Positions 8,597-23,183 of a stretch of DNA of 52,313 nucleotides are shown here, piece by piece. The DNA comes from Candidatus Anaerobiospirillum pullistercoris (GTDB lineage Bacteria; Pseudomonadota; Gammaproteobacteria; Enterobacterales; Succinivibrionaceae), in NCBI GenBank assembly GCA_019114785.1, contig DXEV01000032.1, positions 1-52,313 on the forward strand, given 5' to 3'. The position numbers and the translations under genes were made by a program. The notes under the pieces were generated by a model. The model did not search any database and was not told the origin of the DNA. It saw nothing but the letters and a program-made list of their open reading frames with translations. Within the stretch, counting starts at the first letter, position 1. Each line of letters starts with the position of its first letter.

Positions 8597-8649
8597 GGAG
8601 GCGGCGCTTCCTCCCTGAAGTGAGTTTGGGATCTCCGCGCCGATTTTAG
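8597..8649 (+). promoter_or_regulatory. Structured 53-nt leader of rfbA (see findings)
   Basis: GGAGG followed by CGGCGC...GCGCCG and ATTTTAG-ATG; no Shine-Dalgarno close to the ATG. Confidence 0.5.
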
Positions 8650-9537
8650 ATGAAAGGAATCCTACTCGCCGGAGGACGTGGTACACGCCTCTACCCTCTT
8701 ACCAAATCCACATCCAAACAGCTCTTACCGGTATACGACAAACCCATGATCTATTACCCCTTGTCGACCTTAATGCTGTTTGGCATTCGCGAGATCTTAG
8801 TGATCTCTACCCCTCATGATCTCCCTCACATTAAGCACCTGCTAGGCAGTGGTGCTCAGTTTGGTCTGTCTCTGAGCTACGCTATCCAAGAACAACCAGA
8901 GGGCATAGCCCAAGCTCTGGTCATTGGCGCGAACTTTATTGGCACGGACAATGTCTGCCTGATTTTAGGTGACAATATCTTCTACATGGGAGAGCAATAC
9001 CACCAATTCCTCTCTGCTGTTCATCGCGATGAGGGCTCTAAAGCCACCATCTTTGCCTACCACGTATCTAACCCTCAGCGTTTTGGTGTAATTGAATTTA
9101 ACGAGCACTTAGAGGCCATCTCCATTGAAGAAAAGCCGCAAAATCCTAAGTCTAACTTCGTGTCTGTAGGACTATATTTCTACCCTAGCGACGTAGTGGC
9201 TAAAGCCCGCACTTTAAAGAAATCTGCACGCGGCGAATATGAGATCACCGATCTCAACAACCTCTATCTGCAAGAGCAGCGCTTAAACGTGGTTCCTATG
9301 CGGCGCGGTAATGCGTGGCTAGACGCCGGAACACCTGACAGTCTGATGGACTCTAGTATCTTTGTGCAGATCATTGAAAAGCGCCAAGGACTTAAGATCG
9401 CCTGCTTAGAGGAGATCGCTTACTATCAGGGCTTTATCAGCCGTGAACAACTACAGCACCTCACGCAAGAACTCAGTGCTGGTGCCTACAAAGACTACCT
9501 ACAGAAGGTTTTGGACGATGCGCACGAGATTTACTAA
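8650..9537 (+). CDS. rfbA: Glucose-1-phosphate thymidylyltransferase
   Basis: MKGILLAGGRGTRLYPLTKSTSKQLLPVYDKPMIYYPLSTLMLFGIREILVIS, RfbA/RmlA signature. Confidence 0.96.
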   Translation: MKGILLAGGRGTRLYPLTKSTSKQLLPVYDKPMIYYPLSTLMLFGIREILVISTPHDLPHIKHLLGSGAQFGLSLSYAIQEQPEGIAQALVIGANFIGTDNVCLILGDNIFYMGEQYHQFLSAVHRDEGSKATIFAYHVSNPQRFGVIEFNEHLEAISIEEKPQNPKSNFVSVGLYFYPSDVVAKARTLKKSARGEYEITDLNNLYLQEQRLNVVPMRRGNAWLDAGTPDSLMDSSIFVQIIEKRQGLKIACLEEIAYYQGFISREQLQHLTQELSAGAYKDYLQKVLDDAHEIY

Positions 9538-13846: not shown

Positions 13847-13942
13847 GCTTACTAGGCTTCAAGCCTAAACATAGGCTGAAGCCTACGCCTAAATCCCTCC
13901 TCTTGCAGGGGAGGGATGTTATCTATTCATGAATTAGGACAA

Positions 13943-13995
13943 GGAGGCGGCGCTCTATCTTTCAAGAATCTTGAGGAGCTGAGCACCGATTGTTG
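13943..13995 (+). promoter_or_regulatory. Structured 53-nt leader of the UDP-glucuronate decarboxylase-like gene (see findings)
   Basis: GGAGG, CGGCGCTC...GAGCACCG, then ATTGTTG-ATG; same length and layout as 8597-8649. Confidence 0.5.
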
Positions 13996-14988
13996 ATGAA
14001 TATTTTAGTGACCGGTGGTTCCGGTTTTATTGGCTCTAACCTCTGTCGTCGCTTGCTCGATGAGGGGCATTATGTGCTTTGTTTGGACAACAATTACACG
14101 GGACGGATGGAGAATATCCAAGAATTACTGACCAATGATCACTTTAGCTTCATCCTTGCAGATGTATGCGACAGTTTAAAAGATCGTCCTGAGCTCAAGA
14201 CGCAAGCCCTGCACTTAGATCAGATCTACAACTTAGCATGCCCAGCTAGCCCTCCTGCTTATCAGGGATTGCATGCCATTGAGACCACTAAGACTTGTGT
14301 CTTAGGGGCAATCAATGTGTTGGAGCTGGCTTTAGCCCATGGCGCTACTGTATTGCAAGCCTCTACCTCCGAGGTATATGGCGATCCTTTAGTGCATCCA
14401 CAGCATGAAGGCTATCGTGGCAACGTCAATCCTAATGGTATTCGTGCATGCTATGACGAGGGTAAGCGCTGTGCTGAGAGCTTGTTCTTCGACTATGCCC
14501 GCCATTTAGGAGCCAAAATTAAAGTCATTCGTATCTTCAACACCTATGGCCCATTTATGGATCCAAAAGATGGCCGTGTAGTTAGCAATTTCATATGCCA
14601 AGCCTTACGCGGTGAAGATCTTACGGTCTACGGTCAGGGTGAACAGACACGCTCGTTCTGTTTTGTCGATGACTTAATTGCGGGAATGGTGGCCATGATG
14701 AACTCAGATCCTGAATTTTTAGGCCCAGTAAATCTGGGAAATCCTCAGGAGTTCACCATTGCGCAATTAGCTCAGCAGGTGTTAGAGATGATTCCAAGTG
14801 GGGCCAAGCTGGTGTTTAAGGATTTACCACAGGATGATCCTCGTTGCCGTAAGCCAGATATCAGCCTAGCAAAAAGTAAATTAGGCTGGCAGCCTCACAT
14901 TAAGCTTACAGAAGGATTACAGCGCTCTATCCCTTACTTTGCTCAGCGCCTGCGTGATGATGGTGTGCAGTTGAAGGCCGTCTTCTAA
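13996..14988 (+). CDS. UDP-glucuronate decarboxylase / UDP-xylose synthase-like SDR epimerase
   Basis: [59 protein letters not shown]. Confidence 0.85.
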
Positions 14989-18686: not shown

Positions 18687-19373
18687 ATGTCTCTTATTCT
18701 TCCACCAGACTTTGGTCAGACTCCTAAACAAAAGCTGGTACTGCCTGAAGGCTTTAAAAGCCTATTAGTGCAAGTGTGCTGTGCCCCTTGCTGCGGAGCT
18801 GTACTCGAGTGCTTTAAGTACCACAACATCAACCCGACGCTCTTCTTCTATAACCCTAACATCCACCCTCGTGCCGAATATGAAAAGCGTCGCGACGAGC
18901 TCATTGAGCTGTCCAAGCTGCTGGGCTTTGCTTATGTGATCCCAGAATACGAGACTAAATCATGGTTTGAGGCCGTAAAGGGCTTAGAACATGAGCCAGA
19001 AAGAGGCAAGCGCTGTACTGTGTGCTTTACCCGTCGGCTCACTGTAACAGCCCAATATGCCAAAAAGCACGGCTTCTCTCACTTTACGACAACGCTGGCC
19101 ACTTCTCGCTGGAAGGACAAGAAGCAAGTAGACGCTGCTGGCTTTGCGGCTCAAGAGGCCACCGGAGTACCTTACTGGAGCGAAGACTGGCGCAAAGGCG
19201 GTCTAGTCACACGTCGTTACCAGCTGGTCAAGGAGTTTAACTTCTACAACCAGCTCTACTGCGGCTGTGTCTACTCGCAGCAAAACAACACCCATGTCGC
19301 CCACGTTACCGACACGGCTATCGCCTGCACTAACTGTAAAACAAACATAGCCCCGAGTGACATAGGGGCATAA
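18687..19373 (+). CDS. queH: Epoxyqueuosine reductase QueH (DUF208 family)
   Basis: VCCAPCCGAVLE, FFYNPNIHPRAEYEKRRDEL, GKRCTVCFTRRL, LYCGCVYS cysteine motifs. Confidence 0.9.
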   Translation: MSLILPPDFGQTPKQKLVLPEGFKSLLVQVCCAPCCGAVLECFKYHNINPTLFFYNPNIHPRAEYEKRRDELIELSKLLGFAYVIPEYETKSWFEAVKGLEHEPERGKRCTVCFTRRLTVTAQYAKKHGFSHFTTTLATSRWKDKKQVDAAGFAAQEATGVPYWSEDWRKGGLVTRRYQLVKEFNFYNQLYCGCVYSQQNNTHVAHVTDTAIACTNCKTNIAPSDIGA

Positions 19374-19458: not shown

Positions 19459-20595
19459 TCAGGACTTGGAGGAATTTTTCCGCTCAGCAGCTTTAGCAGC
19501 TTTCTTAGCCTTAGCTTCTTCCTCTTTGGTGACTAACTCAACAATGTTAATAATTGCTGATAACTTACGCATTAAACTATAGAGCTTGTTGTTATATTTT
19601 AACCTTGCACGCAATTGCTGGAACTTCTGGGTGTTTGGTATAAAACGATATACAGGGAAAATATAACTAAAAGACAAATTATGGCCTTTTAGATCAATAC
19701 CATGCTGCTGGAAATAATCACGACTCAAGAGAGCTAATTGCTTCTGTAACGGTACAGCCAAGCGGTCGTATAGACTTAGGATGTGTTCTAAAGCATACAT
19801 TTGCCAACGAGTTAACAAAACAGAAGATACATCGGGCTCTTGGACGTGCTCTTTGATATATTGATAATCAAACTCTAATAGGTCAAACAGACTTTGTACT
19901 TGCTTCTCATTGCAACTAACACTCAAAGAGTTGTCCGACAGCTGGTGGTACAATATCTCATTGACAAACGATATTTTTCTGGCATTTAACACCAGTTGGA
20001 TTGACCAGCACTGATCTTGGCCAGAGTACAAAGCTGGATACTCAATACCGAATTGCTCAATGAAGTCACGAGCCACCAACTTATCCCAAGGAGCACTATT
20101 GAACTGAAAAGCTAATTTTTTGAGTTCAGTAATATCTGTGGCTTCCAATAGCTCTTTATCGATAGAATAATTACGAACAGTATTACCACAATGCGAGCTA
20201 TATCCACAATGGACAAAATCAGCCTGATCTTGTCGTAATTTACCCAGCATTTTTTCAACAAGATCCGGCTCGAGCTCATCATCGGCATCCATGAAGTACA
20301 CGGCAGAGCCAGAACTTAGAGCAACGCCACGATTACGAGTTGGCCCTATCCCTAAAATGCAGTCATTACGACAAATAACAATATTCTTATCAGAGTGCTC
20401 TTGCTTAAAAGCCTGAATTTTTTGCCAAGAGTCATCTTCTGAGCAATCATCAACCAACACTAATTCTAAATTAGTGTAAGTTTGATTGAACACAGCAGAT
20501 AATTTCTCTATAGAATCAGCGATATTATAACAAGGTATAATAACTGACACGAGCTCACTGAGCTCTCCTTGTTGTTCTTTCATAAGTAAAGACAA
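19459..20595 (-). CDS. Glycosyltransferase family 2 (copy a)
   Basis: VSVIIPCYNIADSIEKLSAVFNQTYTNLELVLVDDCSEDDSW, YFMDADDELEPD. Confidence 0.9.
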   Translation of the reverse strand: MSLLMKEQQGELSELVSVIIPCYNIADSIEKLSAVFNQTYTNLELVLVDDCSEDDSWQKIQAFKQEHSDKNIVICRNDCILGIGPTRNRGVALSSGSAVYFMDADDELEPDLVEKMLGKLRQDQADFVHCGYSSHCGNTVRNYSIDKELLEATDITELKKLAFQFNSAPWDKLVARDFIEQFGIEYPALYSGQDQCWSIQLVLNARKISFVNEILYHQLSDNSLSVSCNEKQVQSLFDLLEFDYQYIKEHVQEPDVSSVLLTRWQMYALEHILSLYDRLAVPLQKQLALLSRDYFQQHGIDLKGHNLSFSYIFPVYRFIPNTQKFQQLRARLKYNNKLYSLMRKLSAIINIVELVTKEEEAKAKKAAKAAERKNSSKS

Positions 20596-20667
20596 TCCTT
20601 AAATCACCTTATTTCAGTAGCACCTAATTAAAAATGACAGTATCTTTTTCTTTTACTGGTTATAAGG

Positions 20668-20821
20668 GACAAGAAGAAGAAGAAGAAGAAGGTGCAACTG
20701 GTTTTGCCGCCCAAGAGACCACCGTAGAGCCTTACTGGAACGAAGACTGGCGCAAAGGTTGTCTAGTATAGTCACGCATCATTACCAGCTGATCTGATCA
20801 AAGAGTTTAACTTCTACAACT
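20668..20821 (+). pseudogene. Decayed duplicate of the 3' part of queH
   Basis: GGACAAGAAG..GGTTTTGCCGCCCAAGAGACCACCGTAGAGCCTTACTGGAACGAAGACTGGCGCAAAGG..AGAGTTTAACTTCTACAAC closely matches 19116-19250, with 4-5 nt insertions breaking the frame. Confidence 0.9.
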
Positions 20822-20839
20822 AGGCAGCCAATGCAGCAA

Positions 20840-21907
20840 TTATTGCTGCTTAGAACGTTTTTGGGCAATATCTAAAATAGCGCCAAAGATATCATTATAA
20901 TTGCGCAAAGCTTTACAGCAATTATAACTACACTTTAACTTCCAGCGTAATTTCAGATTAAGCTTTTTTGACAACAAGCGATATAAAGGTGCTCTGACAT
21001 AAAAAGGATATTTCTGCCACACAAGCTCAATGTTTTGTTTTTGGCAAAAATCATAAAATCTCAAAGCAAACTGGCACTGCAAATCAGAGCCATTAGGAAA
21101 CTTAAACCACCATTTAGTGGCGTCATAGAGACAACGTAACTTCCATTCATCCACCAAATCGTCAAACATTCCCTTTTGGTGAAAGAGTTGCTCTGAAAAC
21201 TGCAATAGATATGATATACCATCAAGCACACGAATATTAGACCAGCTAGTCATGGAGTTTGGAAATCTAAAATAATGATATAGAGGCTCCTCGATAAAAG
21301 CTATATTGTTAGCATTCAAGACTAACTGCATCGTCCAAACACGCTCTTCACCATAAGCACTATCAGGAAAGCTTATATTATATTGCTCAATAAAGCTACG
21401 TCTTACAAGCTTATTCCATACAGCACACATAAAATTAAAGAAATGATGTTTAATCTCTAGAGTAGTCTTAGACTCTAGCAGTTCGTGTTCTACAGGCACA
21501 ACACTTACCTGTGCACCTTCATGAAAATAATAAGCGCAACAAACAAAATCAGCCTGTTTCTGATTTAACTGAGACAACATTTTCTCAATATAATCAGGTT
21601 CAATCTGATCATCAGCATCCCAAAAAACGACAAACTCACCTGAACTTAAAGCAAATCCTTTATTACGGGTAAGCCCAACGCCTAAATTTTGTTCATTGTG
21701 ATGAACGATAATACGCTTATCACTATGAGCTTGTTTAAACTCTTGCAATTTCTGCCAAGTATCATCACTTGAACAATCATCAACAAGAATCAGCTCTAGC
21801 TCTTTATAGCTCTGCTCGAATACACTTGACAAATTGCCAATAAAACTCGATACGTTATAGCAAGGCACAATTACCGATACAAGGCTCATAACAATACAAC
21901 AACCCAA
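20840..21907 (-). CDS. Glycosyltransferase family 2 (copy b)
   Basis: VSVIVPCYNVSSFIGNLSSVFEQSYKELELILVDDCSSDDTW, FWDADDQIEPDYIEKML. Confidence 0.9.
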   Translation of the reverse strand: MGCCIVMSLVSVIVPCYNVSSFIGNLSSVFEQSYKELELILVDDCSSDDTWQKLQEFKQAHSDKRIIVHHNEQNLGVGLTRNKGFALSSGEFVVFWDADDQIEPDYIEKMLSQLNQKQADFVCCAYYFHEGAQVSVVPVEHELLESKTTLEIKHHFFNFMCAVWNKLVRRSFIEQYNISFPDSAYGEERVWTMQLVLNANNIAFIEEPLYHYFRFPNSMTSWSNIRVLDGISYLLQFSEQLFHQKGMFDDLVDEWKLRCLYDATKWWFKFPNGSDLQCQFALRFYDFCQKQNIELVWQKYPFYVRAPLYRLLSKKLNLKLRWKLKCSYNCCKALRNYNDIFGAILDIAQKRSKQQ

Positions 21908-21967
21908 TCTTAGCTAATCACAAGTAAAGCACCATAATAGAGAGAAGTTCAAGTCAGAGCAGCAGCA

Positions 21968-22078
21968 TATAGACAGGGGTTAAGGGCAAAACAGGTGCTT
22001 GGTCTGCTCCGCAAGCCTGATAAAATCAGACTGCATCTTAACAGGATGTCAGGAAAATGAGCCTAACCTCTGTCTATA
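21968..22078. repeat. ~111-nt inverted-repeat element, copy A
   Basis: Ends TATAGACAGGGGTTA / TAACCTCTGTCTATA; left 54 nt aligns without gaps to the reverse complement of 41826-41879. Confidence 0.7.
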
Positions 22079-22106
22079 AACAAAATTACACCAACCAAGA
22101 ACAAGA

Positions 22107-23183
22107 TTAATTAGCTAAAGCTAAATAGCGTAATTTGTTACATAACTCATTACGCTTAATAATACTCTCTCCTTCAAGAAAGCGCTTTTTTAATCTAGCT
22201 CTAGTTTCTTTAAATATAAAAGGAGGAATTATTCTATATAAACGTTTTTTAGCAAAAGCAGATGCAGGCAATGCATGCTCACTGGTATCAATATTATACC
22301 GCTCGCAAAAATCTAAATATTGTTTCGCAAAATATTTTAATAATTCAGGCTCTTTGTCTAATACATTAAAAAAATAAGTTAGCTGTTTAACACGATATTC
22401 TTTCCAAGAACTTATTAACTCATTTTCAAGATGATACTTAATGATAGTTTTATATTCAAAAACTGTCATATCTAAAACACCTTGTACAAATCTTTTATCA
22501 TGGCCTGAAGATAGCGAGTTATCTCTTTTAATATAGTGGTACAATTGTTCCTTAACAAAAGAGATCTTATGGGCTTCTAAAGTTAACAACATTCCCCAAC
22601 AATGATCTTCACATACAAAAATATCAGGAAACTCTATTCCTTTATCAAGGATAAACTCACGCTTAACTAGCTTGTTACAAGGTGATGGAATAAAATCAAA
22701 AAATAGTTTCTGAATATCTTTTATATTTTTTGCTGCTAATAATGCAGGAGTTAACTCCAGCACACTCGACTTATTACCATTAACTAAATGTATATCACAA
22801 CATACAAAATCAGCATCTTCTTGCTTGATTTTAGATAGCATTTTTTCCACATACGTTGGCTCTACCTGATCATCTGCATCCCAAAAACATACAAACTTTC
22901 CAGTACTTAACTTAACACCTAAGTTACGGGTCTTACCAGCTCCTTGATTGTGTTCATTACGAGCAACAATCACTCTCTCGTTAACATGTTGCTGTTTAAA
23001 ATTTTGAATTTTTGCCCAAGTATCATCTGTAGAACAGTCATCAATAAGCACTAACTCTATAGCAGGATAAGTTTGCTTAAACACAAAGTGCAGATTATCT
23101 ACATAAGAAGACACGTTGTAACAAGGAATAATAACGGAAACCAAATCAGTATTAGTATTAGTATTAGTCATAATGGACTCCAA
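22107..23183 (-). CDS. Glycosyltransferase family 2 (copy c)
   Basis: VSVIIPCYNVSSYVDNLHFVFKQTYPAIELVLIDDCSTDDTW, FWDADDQVEPTYVEKML. Confidence 0.9.
   Translation of the reverse strand: MESIMTNTNTNTDLVSVIIPCYNVSSYVDNLHFVFKQTYPAIELVLIDDCSTDDTWAKIQNFKQQHVNERVIVARNEHNQGAGKTRNLGVKLSTGKFVCFWDADDQVEPTYVEKMLSKIKQEDADFVCCDIHLVNGNKSSVLELTPALLAAKNIKDIQKLFFDFIPSPCNKLVKREFILDKGIEFPDIFVCEDHCWGMLLTLEAHKISFVKEQLYHYIKRDNSLSSGHDKRFVQGVLDMTVFEYKTIIKYHLENELISSWKEYRVKQLTYFFNVLDKEPELLKYFAKQYLDFCERYNIDTSEHALPASAFAKKRLYRIIPPFIFKETRARLKKRFLEGESIIKRNELCNKLRYLALAN
23148..23168 (-). repeat. Hexanucleotide repeat at the start of GT2 copy c
   Basis: (AGTATT)x3 plus AGT on plus strand, encoding Thr-Asn dipeptides (MTNTNTNTD). 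Confidence 0.8.

Follow-up and report, generated by a model that had tools for sequence, protein, structure and literature searches.

Two genes in the window, the 52,313-nt stretch of Candidatus Anaerobiospirillum pullistercoris DNA analysed here, are preceded by short leaders of the same layout. The first is a glucose-1-phosphate thymidylyltransferase-like gene, rfbA (8650-9537, forward strand; Pfam NTP_transferase, 3e-69), and the second is an NAD-dependent epimerase gene resembling UDP-xylose synthase (UXS; 13996-14988, forward strand; Pfam Epimerase, 9e-47, and GDP_Man_Dehyd, 1e-44). Both start with ATG followed by A. The best named match of the UXS protein is from A. succiniciproducens (71%), and the source organism is Anaerobiospirillum-like. 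Sister-species orthologues of the UXS-like gene begin at the same methionine, and the longest-ORF call in the window begins at a TTG within the spacer that precedes it.

The UXS leader occupies positions 13943-13995 of the forward strand and matches the covariance models described below with E values of 2e-7 and 1.5e-7. It opens with the Shine–Dalgarno (SD) core GGAGG (13943-13947), which lies at a linear distance of 48 nt from the start codon. The 5' strand of an outer stem follows (CGGCGCTC, 13948-13955) and pairs with a 3' strand (GAGCACCG, 13981-13988), as indicated by the sequence, the predicted fold and covariation. Between the two strands lies a predicted inner hairpin, TTTCAAG-AAT-CTTGAGG (13960-13976). 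The last 7 nt, ATTGTTG (13989-13995), contain no SD of their own and would constitute the effective SD-to-start spacing when the hairpin is folded. The rfbA leader (8597-8649, forward strand), the first copy in the window, is recognized by sequence and by covariance-model matches and consists of GGAGG (8597-8601, assigned by sequence and spacing analysis), outer stem strands CGGCGC (8602-8607) and GCGCCG (8637-8642), and the 7-nt spacer ATTTTAG (8643-8649). It also contains CCTCC (8610-8614), which could pair with the SD in an alternative fold. The preliminary description of this DNA was accurate on the sequence features: both leaders are 53 nt long and share GGAGGCGGCGCT plus a pyrimidine, they end in GCGCCGATTTTAG-ATG and GCACCGATTGTTG-ATG before rfbA and UXS, respectively, the UXS stem has one mismatch, and its inner hairpin is present.

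A strong hairpin resembling an intrinsic terminator follows cysS at 13893-13917, just 5' of the UXS leader. The UXS gene is therefore likely to be transcribed from a promoter of its own, located between this hairpin and GGAGG; a sigma-70 promoter scan upstream of the leader gave no match. Elsewhere in the window, three adjacent reverse-strand genes (19459-23183) have stretches with 67–70% identity and form an apparent tandem gene family, and an 82-nt repeat is common to 19126-19207 and 20686-20767.

The two leaders belong to a larger family. The 3.63-Mb genome contains 15 exact matches to GGAGGCGGCGCT and 35 with at most one mismatch, compared with 2 for the reversed control. The 15 exact matches were picked by the 5' 12-mer alone, and 14 of them are followed by the 3' stem strand and by a start codon 53–58 nt downstream of the first G. 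Building a covariance model and searching the genome had been proposed as a check, and the search found more than the two known copies: models of 21 and 65 sequences, which are biased toward copies retaining the SD and the stem, detected 33 copies (E < 0.01) and 39 copies (E ≤ 0.001), respectively. Applied to 57 genomes of the same bacterial family, the second model also detected copies in 19, mainly in two genera. Rfam gave no match at the curated gathering score for the whole window and only chance-level matches for the region around the leader. Single-sequence folds of the two window leaders are not above those of shuffled sequence (z from −0.1 to −1.4), and the case for a conserved structure therefore rests on the family rather than on the two copies.

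The family layout consists of an SD core (GGAG or GAGG), the 5' stem strand, an interior with an inner helix, the 3' stem strand, about 7 nt, and the start codon. In the alignment of 65 distinct sequences, pairing in the outer helix reaches 97.9%, and 5 of the 6 base pairs show changes on both sides; the stems include CGGCGC/GCGCCG, CGGCAA/TTGCCG, CAGCGC/GCGCTG and CGCCGC/GCGGCG. Over the whole structure, 50 cells are changed on both sides compared with a mean of 20.6 in shuffled data, and none of 500 shuffles reached as high a count. Sliding the partner strand by 1–3 columns roughly halves the pairing, and the inner helices are 73–74% paired across the family. Measured along the sequence, the SD and the start are 49.1 ± 4.5 nt apart (range 31–68); with the hairpin folded out the distance falls to 7.6 ± 1.1 nt with a mode of 7, which is an ordinary SD spacing. 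This effective spacing is the same in leaders as short as 36 nt (L136) and as long as 73 nt (L028), and a second SD-like motif close to the ATG occurs in only 1 of the 65 leaders. These observations support the view that the leaders form an RNA structure that is under selection and linked to start codons.

The association with start codons extends well beyond what the frequency of the ATGA motif would give. About 17% of the ATGA sites outside genes in the window are located at gene starts. By comparison, a gene-like ORF abuts 28 of the 42 recent copies (binomial p = 2e-12), 21 of the 37 in genus g3 (p = 7e-8) and 46 of the 47 solo copies (p = 4e-34). An ORF was counted as gene-like from 60 aa upwards in the recent and solo sets and from 100 aa upwards in g3, and copies were sorted by hand into recent and solo according to their upstream sequence. 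At some apparently orthologous genes, different species have leaders whose interiors differ considerably (LacI-type, L127/L206; Gfo/Idh-type, L131/L199; HU, L144/L205).

Sister genomes reveal the source of the leaders. Near-identical leaders in these genomes are the 3' ends of elements carrying IscB, an OMEGA RNA-guided nuclease, and end exactly at ATGA. Many of them have the same sequence and are found at the ends of contigs, a sign of a high-copy repeat. The C-terminus of IscB is encoded directly 5' of the leader in G002, G003, G004, G009, G011, G023 and some copies in the window's own genome (G000); comparison with solved structures confirmed the protein as IscB (OgeuIscB, 7xht, among others; E values from 5e-11 to 2e-9), and Pfam identified an HNH domain in it. 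A complete element in G011 comprises a left end (GTCAACTACC), iscB, the right end (RE) and ATGA; its ends read GTCAACTACCCCC... on the left and GGAGGACGGCAATTCCTCCCCCGC...GCGGGGGTATCCTTGCCGTAAATTG on the right, followed by ATGAACACAG. Removal of the element brings TTAGAGGTACATAAC directly against ATGAAC, and the joined flanks (TTAGAGGTACATAAC^ATGAACACAG) read as a normal SD followed by a start codon. In G003, 34 RE matches precede unrelated genes and nearly all are complete to the start codon; their flanks nearly all continue through ATGA, with a single GTGA and a single ATGG. All 37 matched copies in G023, G041 and G042 run through ATGA. We considered whether the leader could be a pre-existing target rather than part of the element and rejected this, as about 20 G003 leaders located before different genes have the same sequence even in their interiors.

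Two arrangements in G003 are of separate interest. At L181 (G003:C18:17123-17188) two leader ends lie head to head (TTCATCTAATATCGGCGC...GCGCCGATATTAGATGAA) in a near-perfect palindrome with an ATG facing outward on each side. In other copies, for example L167:1454-1510 (reverse strand), the iscB frame crosses the whole right end and stops at a TAG directly before the next ATG, and translation of iscB could thus be coupled to that of the downstream gene.

A search for IscB in 369 genomes across the class yielded only one other strong match, and the breadth of the phenomenon was therefore looked at on plasmids. Plasmid IscB elements of Fusobacteria, Firmicutes and Shewanella have the same anatomy with different paired stems: GGGCGA/TCGCCC in an Anoxybacillus element located before a thioredoxin gene, CGGCAA/TTGCCG in Shewanella, and further paired stems in Finegoldia and Cetobacterium. 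In G011 and in the plasmid elements the left end carries GTCAAC/TTACC and the right end abuts ATGA, with no target duplication. Joining the Finegoldia flanks restores an overlapping gene junction with the SD AGGAG and a lipoprotein-like start, and an annotated gene start directly follows the element end in 6 of the 10 plasmid loci read. On the Cetobacterium somerae plasmid NZ_CP143322.1 (L319), the joined flanks give one continuous reading frame, and the element may have interrupted a gene at an ATGA inside it and provided the second half with a ribosome-binding site of its own. Since this copy is perhaps inside one frame, ATGA rather than the start codon itself is the common feature. Genes for Y1 (TnpA-like) transposases occur in 12 of 17 genomes, and none with the same ends was found with the patterns tried; the element is presumably moved by a transposase.

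The leader family is therefore structured and covarying, is located at start codons, keeps a constant spacing once the hairpin is folded out, and is the RE of IscB elements. The IscB origin of the family as a whole is well supported. The two window copies are solo copies, with no clear iscB or left end adjoining, and are called solo derivatives rather than elements; for them the same origin is suggested by family membership and by empty sites in related genomes. The UXS orthologues of G001, G002, G003, G005, G006, G007 and A. succiniciproducens have an ordinary 5' region with no leader. Most sisters likewise lack the leader at rfbA (G001 and G007 carry AAGGAGGCCAC-ATG), while G003 has a fresh IscB end at rfbA where the window genome has a diverged solo leader. 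The window leaders are thus lineage-specific insertions rather than an old shared regulatory element, given for UXS that six sister species have no leader at the same gene. Sisters already have GGAGG as the native SD of rfbA, and the SD of the rfbA copy could for this reason be native rather than supplied by the element.

G000 contains a decay series, in which iscB is near-complete, broken, reduced to an eroded tail, or absent. Resemblance to the iscB tail 5' of the leader is strong for several copies, borderline for UXS (p about 0.05–0.07) and not significant upstream of the rfbA leader; a search of the window for a left end found none. Both window copies probably arrived by the same route of insertion and IscB decay; their 5' flanks are no longer clearly iscB-like. 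Six solo copies in G000 (L111, L112, L113, L117, L120 and L127) have ACTGC..GAAGCAGAAAGTTTTTACCATTAACAA in common, about 35 nt 5' of the SD. This could be what is left of an iscB tail, or else the opposite end of a small non-autonomous element that moved independently. The rfbA gene was struck in three species, namely in G000 (window position 8650), in G003:C1 and in G041:C55 (L331). The G041 element is located 13 codons upstream of the usual rfbA methionine and would add an N-terminal extension.

These results lead us to propose, with a probability of roughly 0.78, that the leader is the solo RE of an IscB element kept as a hairpin-bridged ribosome-binding site of the host gene. An IscB-carrying IS200/IS605-like element would insert immediately before ATGA, very often a start codon, and so separate the start codon from its native SD. 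Its RE (the 3' end in iscB orientation) would bring an SD core of its own (GGAG or GAGG), a hairpin and then about 7 nt to the ATG, and the folded hairpin would place the SD about 7 nt from the AUG, such that the host gene is still translated. The iscB gene and the left end would later decay or be deleted. Selection would retain the SD, the outer stem, the spacer and the ATG as the only ribosome-binding site of the gene, and the interior would drift. Anatomy and covariation suggest this function in translation, in which the hairpin would form in the mRNA and bridge the SD to the start. The predicted probability of the outer stem averages 0.84 in solo copies. The predicted mean unpaired probability of the SD speaks against the proposal, as it is modest, 0.33 in solo and 0.44 in linked copies.

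Another scenario is a switch in which CCUCC pairs with GGAGG and blocks translation, formation of the outer stem frees the SD, and the element thereby silences or regulates its neighbour gene. Such a switch would fit the occurrence of both GGAGG and CCTCC in IscB-linked ends of several phyla, and the SD-hiding fold is predicted to be favoured in the rfbA leader, where the predicted probability of the outer stem is only 0.26. The CCTCC motif is however less common among solo copies (18 of 48) than among linked ones (13 of 17; p = 0.01), and the UXS leader lacks it but has kept the SD and the stem. Genes that are essential in relatives (argS, lepB, der and coaD) also stand behind leaders. We consider an SD-hiding switch unlikely as the role of the leaders.

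Subterminal hairpins are expected of IS200/IS605-like ends, and the leaders could be mere transposon footprints in which the hairpin is kept by youth or by the needs of the transposase, with no role in translation. Many copies are indeed near-identical and recent, and model searches favour intact copies, for which reason we also searched with the 3' half of the leader alone. Twenty of the 23 exact matches so obtained are leaders, and the SD core, which is located on the side of the hairpin away from the element end, is kept in all 20 although it was not used to find them. Solo copies with diverged interiors, 36–73 nt long, retain the SD, the stem and the folded spacing, with no other SD close to the ATG. 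Moreover, solo copies are more strictly gene-bound than recent ones (46/47 versus 28/42, p = 9e-5), as expected if only ends turned into ribosome-binding sites survive. A footprint with no function in translation is accordingly improbable.

The preliminary description had interpreted the two leaders as a sign of a co-regulated surface-glycan regulon, which would make the family a host cis-regulatory RNA, riboswitch-like or bound by a protein. The conserved structure at start codons would fit such an RNA, both window copies precede nucleotide-sugar genes, and a UDP-glucose-dehydrogenase-like gene (L165) and envelope genes are found behind other copies. The matches are not confined to glycan or nucleotide-sugar genes, however, but precede a mixture of functionally unrelated ones, including housekeeping genes: besides rfbA, leaders precede the genes for signal peptidase I (lepB), arginyl-tRNA synthetase (argS), Der, CoaD and RuvA, which together with regulators are among those behind solo or decayed copies, and further for an Asd-like protein, an ABC-F protein, a LacI-type regulator and an amino-acid-binding protein. 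Leaders are missing from sister-species orthologues, the copies are mobile and linked to IscB, and the interior lacks the conservation expected of a ligand pocket. A glycan-specific regulatory RNA is thus highly improbable, and the earlier interpretation is half right, with the selected structure upheld and the regulon abandoned. An intrinsic terminator or attenuator, suggested by the G+C-rich stem followed by a T-rich spacer before the gene (CGGCGC...GCGCCGATTTTT in G000), can practically be discounted, as the T run is missing from other members (TTGCCGTAACTTG, GCGCTACTAATATT, GCCGATATTAG) and the terminator scan did not call the leader, its sole strong call being the hairpin after cysS.

If the reading of the leaders as retained IscB right ends is correct, a transposon with an RNA-guided nuclease can enter a gene at its most vulnerable point and leave it functional, and insertions of this kind turn into permanent features of the host. 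The leaders would then be a candidate genome-wide class of hairpin-bridged ribosome-binding sites, the NTGA motif of the IscB/IsrB nuclease superfamily would be linked to start codons, and gene finders that expect a local SD may misplace the starts of leader genes. More broadly, we lean slightly towards the notion that an IscB clade spanning several phyla prefers start codons by way of its ATGA motif, carries a portable ribosome-binding site that keeps insertion from silencing the gene, and seeds host genomes with leaders that end up as the sole ribosome-binding sites of ordinary as well as essential genes. Split ribosome-binding sites and IscB transposons are each known, and their union as a recurrent start-codon leader was not found in the literature searched. 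Neither insertion at start codons nor SD-bearing IscB ends were described there, which is weak evidence of absence, as most subscription papers lay outside the search.

Among mobile elements, the closest relatives are the IscB elements (OMEGA, ISC) of the IS200/IS605 superfamily, such as that of OgeuIscB (PMC9640706). They encode the same nuclease family, have their left end upstream of iscB, and have a hairpin and a fixed ATGA-type flank at the end downstream of iscB. The members of the leader family that are joined to iscB encode a RuvC/HNH IscB protein; the two window copies are not so joined. The point of difference here is that the iscB-distal end bears an SD, probably provides the ribosome-binding site of the adjoining gene, and remains in the genome as a solo leader of host genes, of which the papers searched make no mention. 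A target-adjacent motif of NTGA, NTG or NTGG has been measured for IsrB (PMC9581776), and the flank observed here, ATGA and rarely GTGA or ATGG, is of the same class, although that motif was measured for IsrB nucleases rather than the present IscBs and the link to start codons is drawn in our analysis. Non-autonomous IS200/IS605 derivatives, such as palindrome-associated elements and MITEs, are likewise short, structured, genome-wide remnants, but the window copies have no recognizable left end and have kept translation features rather than both ends.

With respect to translation, the nearest parallel is found in phage T4, whose genes 25 and 38 have split ribosome-binding sites in which RNA structure shortens the distance between the SD and the AUG, from 27 to 11 nt and from 22 to 5 nt (PMC3014915). 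The leaders share the anatomy of a split site, with an SD that is linearly too distant, no nearer SD, and a covarying helix that would restore the spacing. By analogy, RNA structure between the SD and the AUG would shorten the distance from about 49 to about 7 nt. The T4 sites are single, experimentally tested phage sites (PMC3014915), whereas the leaders described here are known from sequence and form a mobile family, derived from a transposon end and present in up to tens of copies per genome before unrelated bacterial genes.
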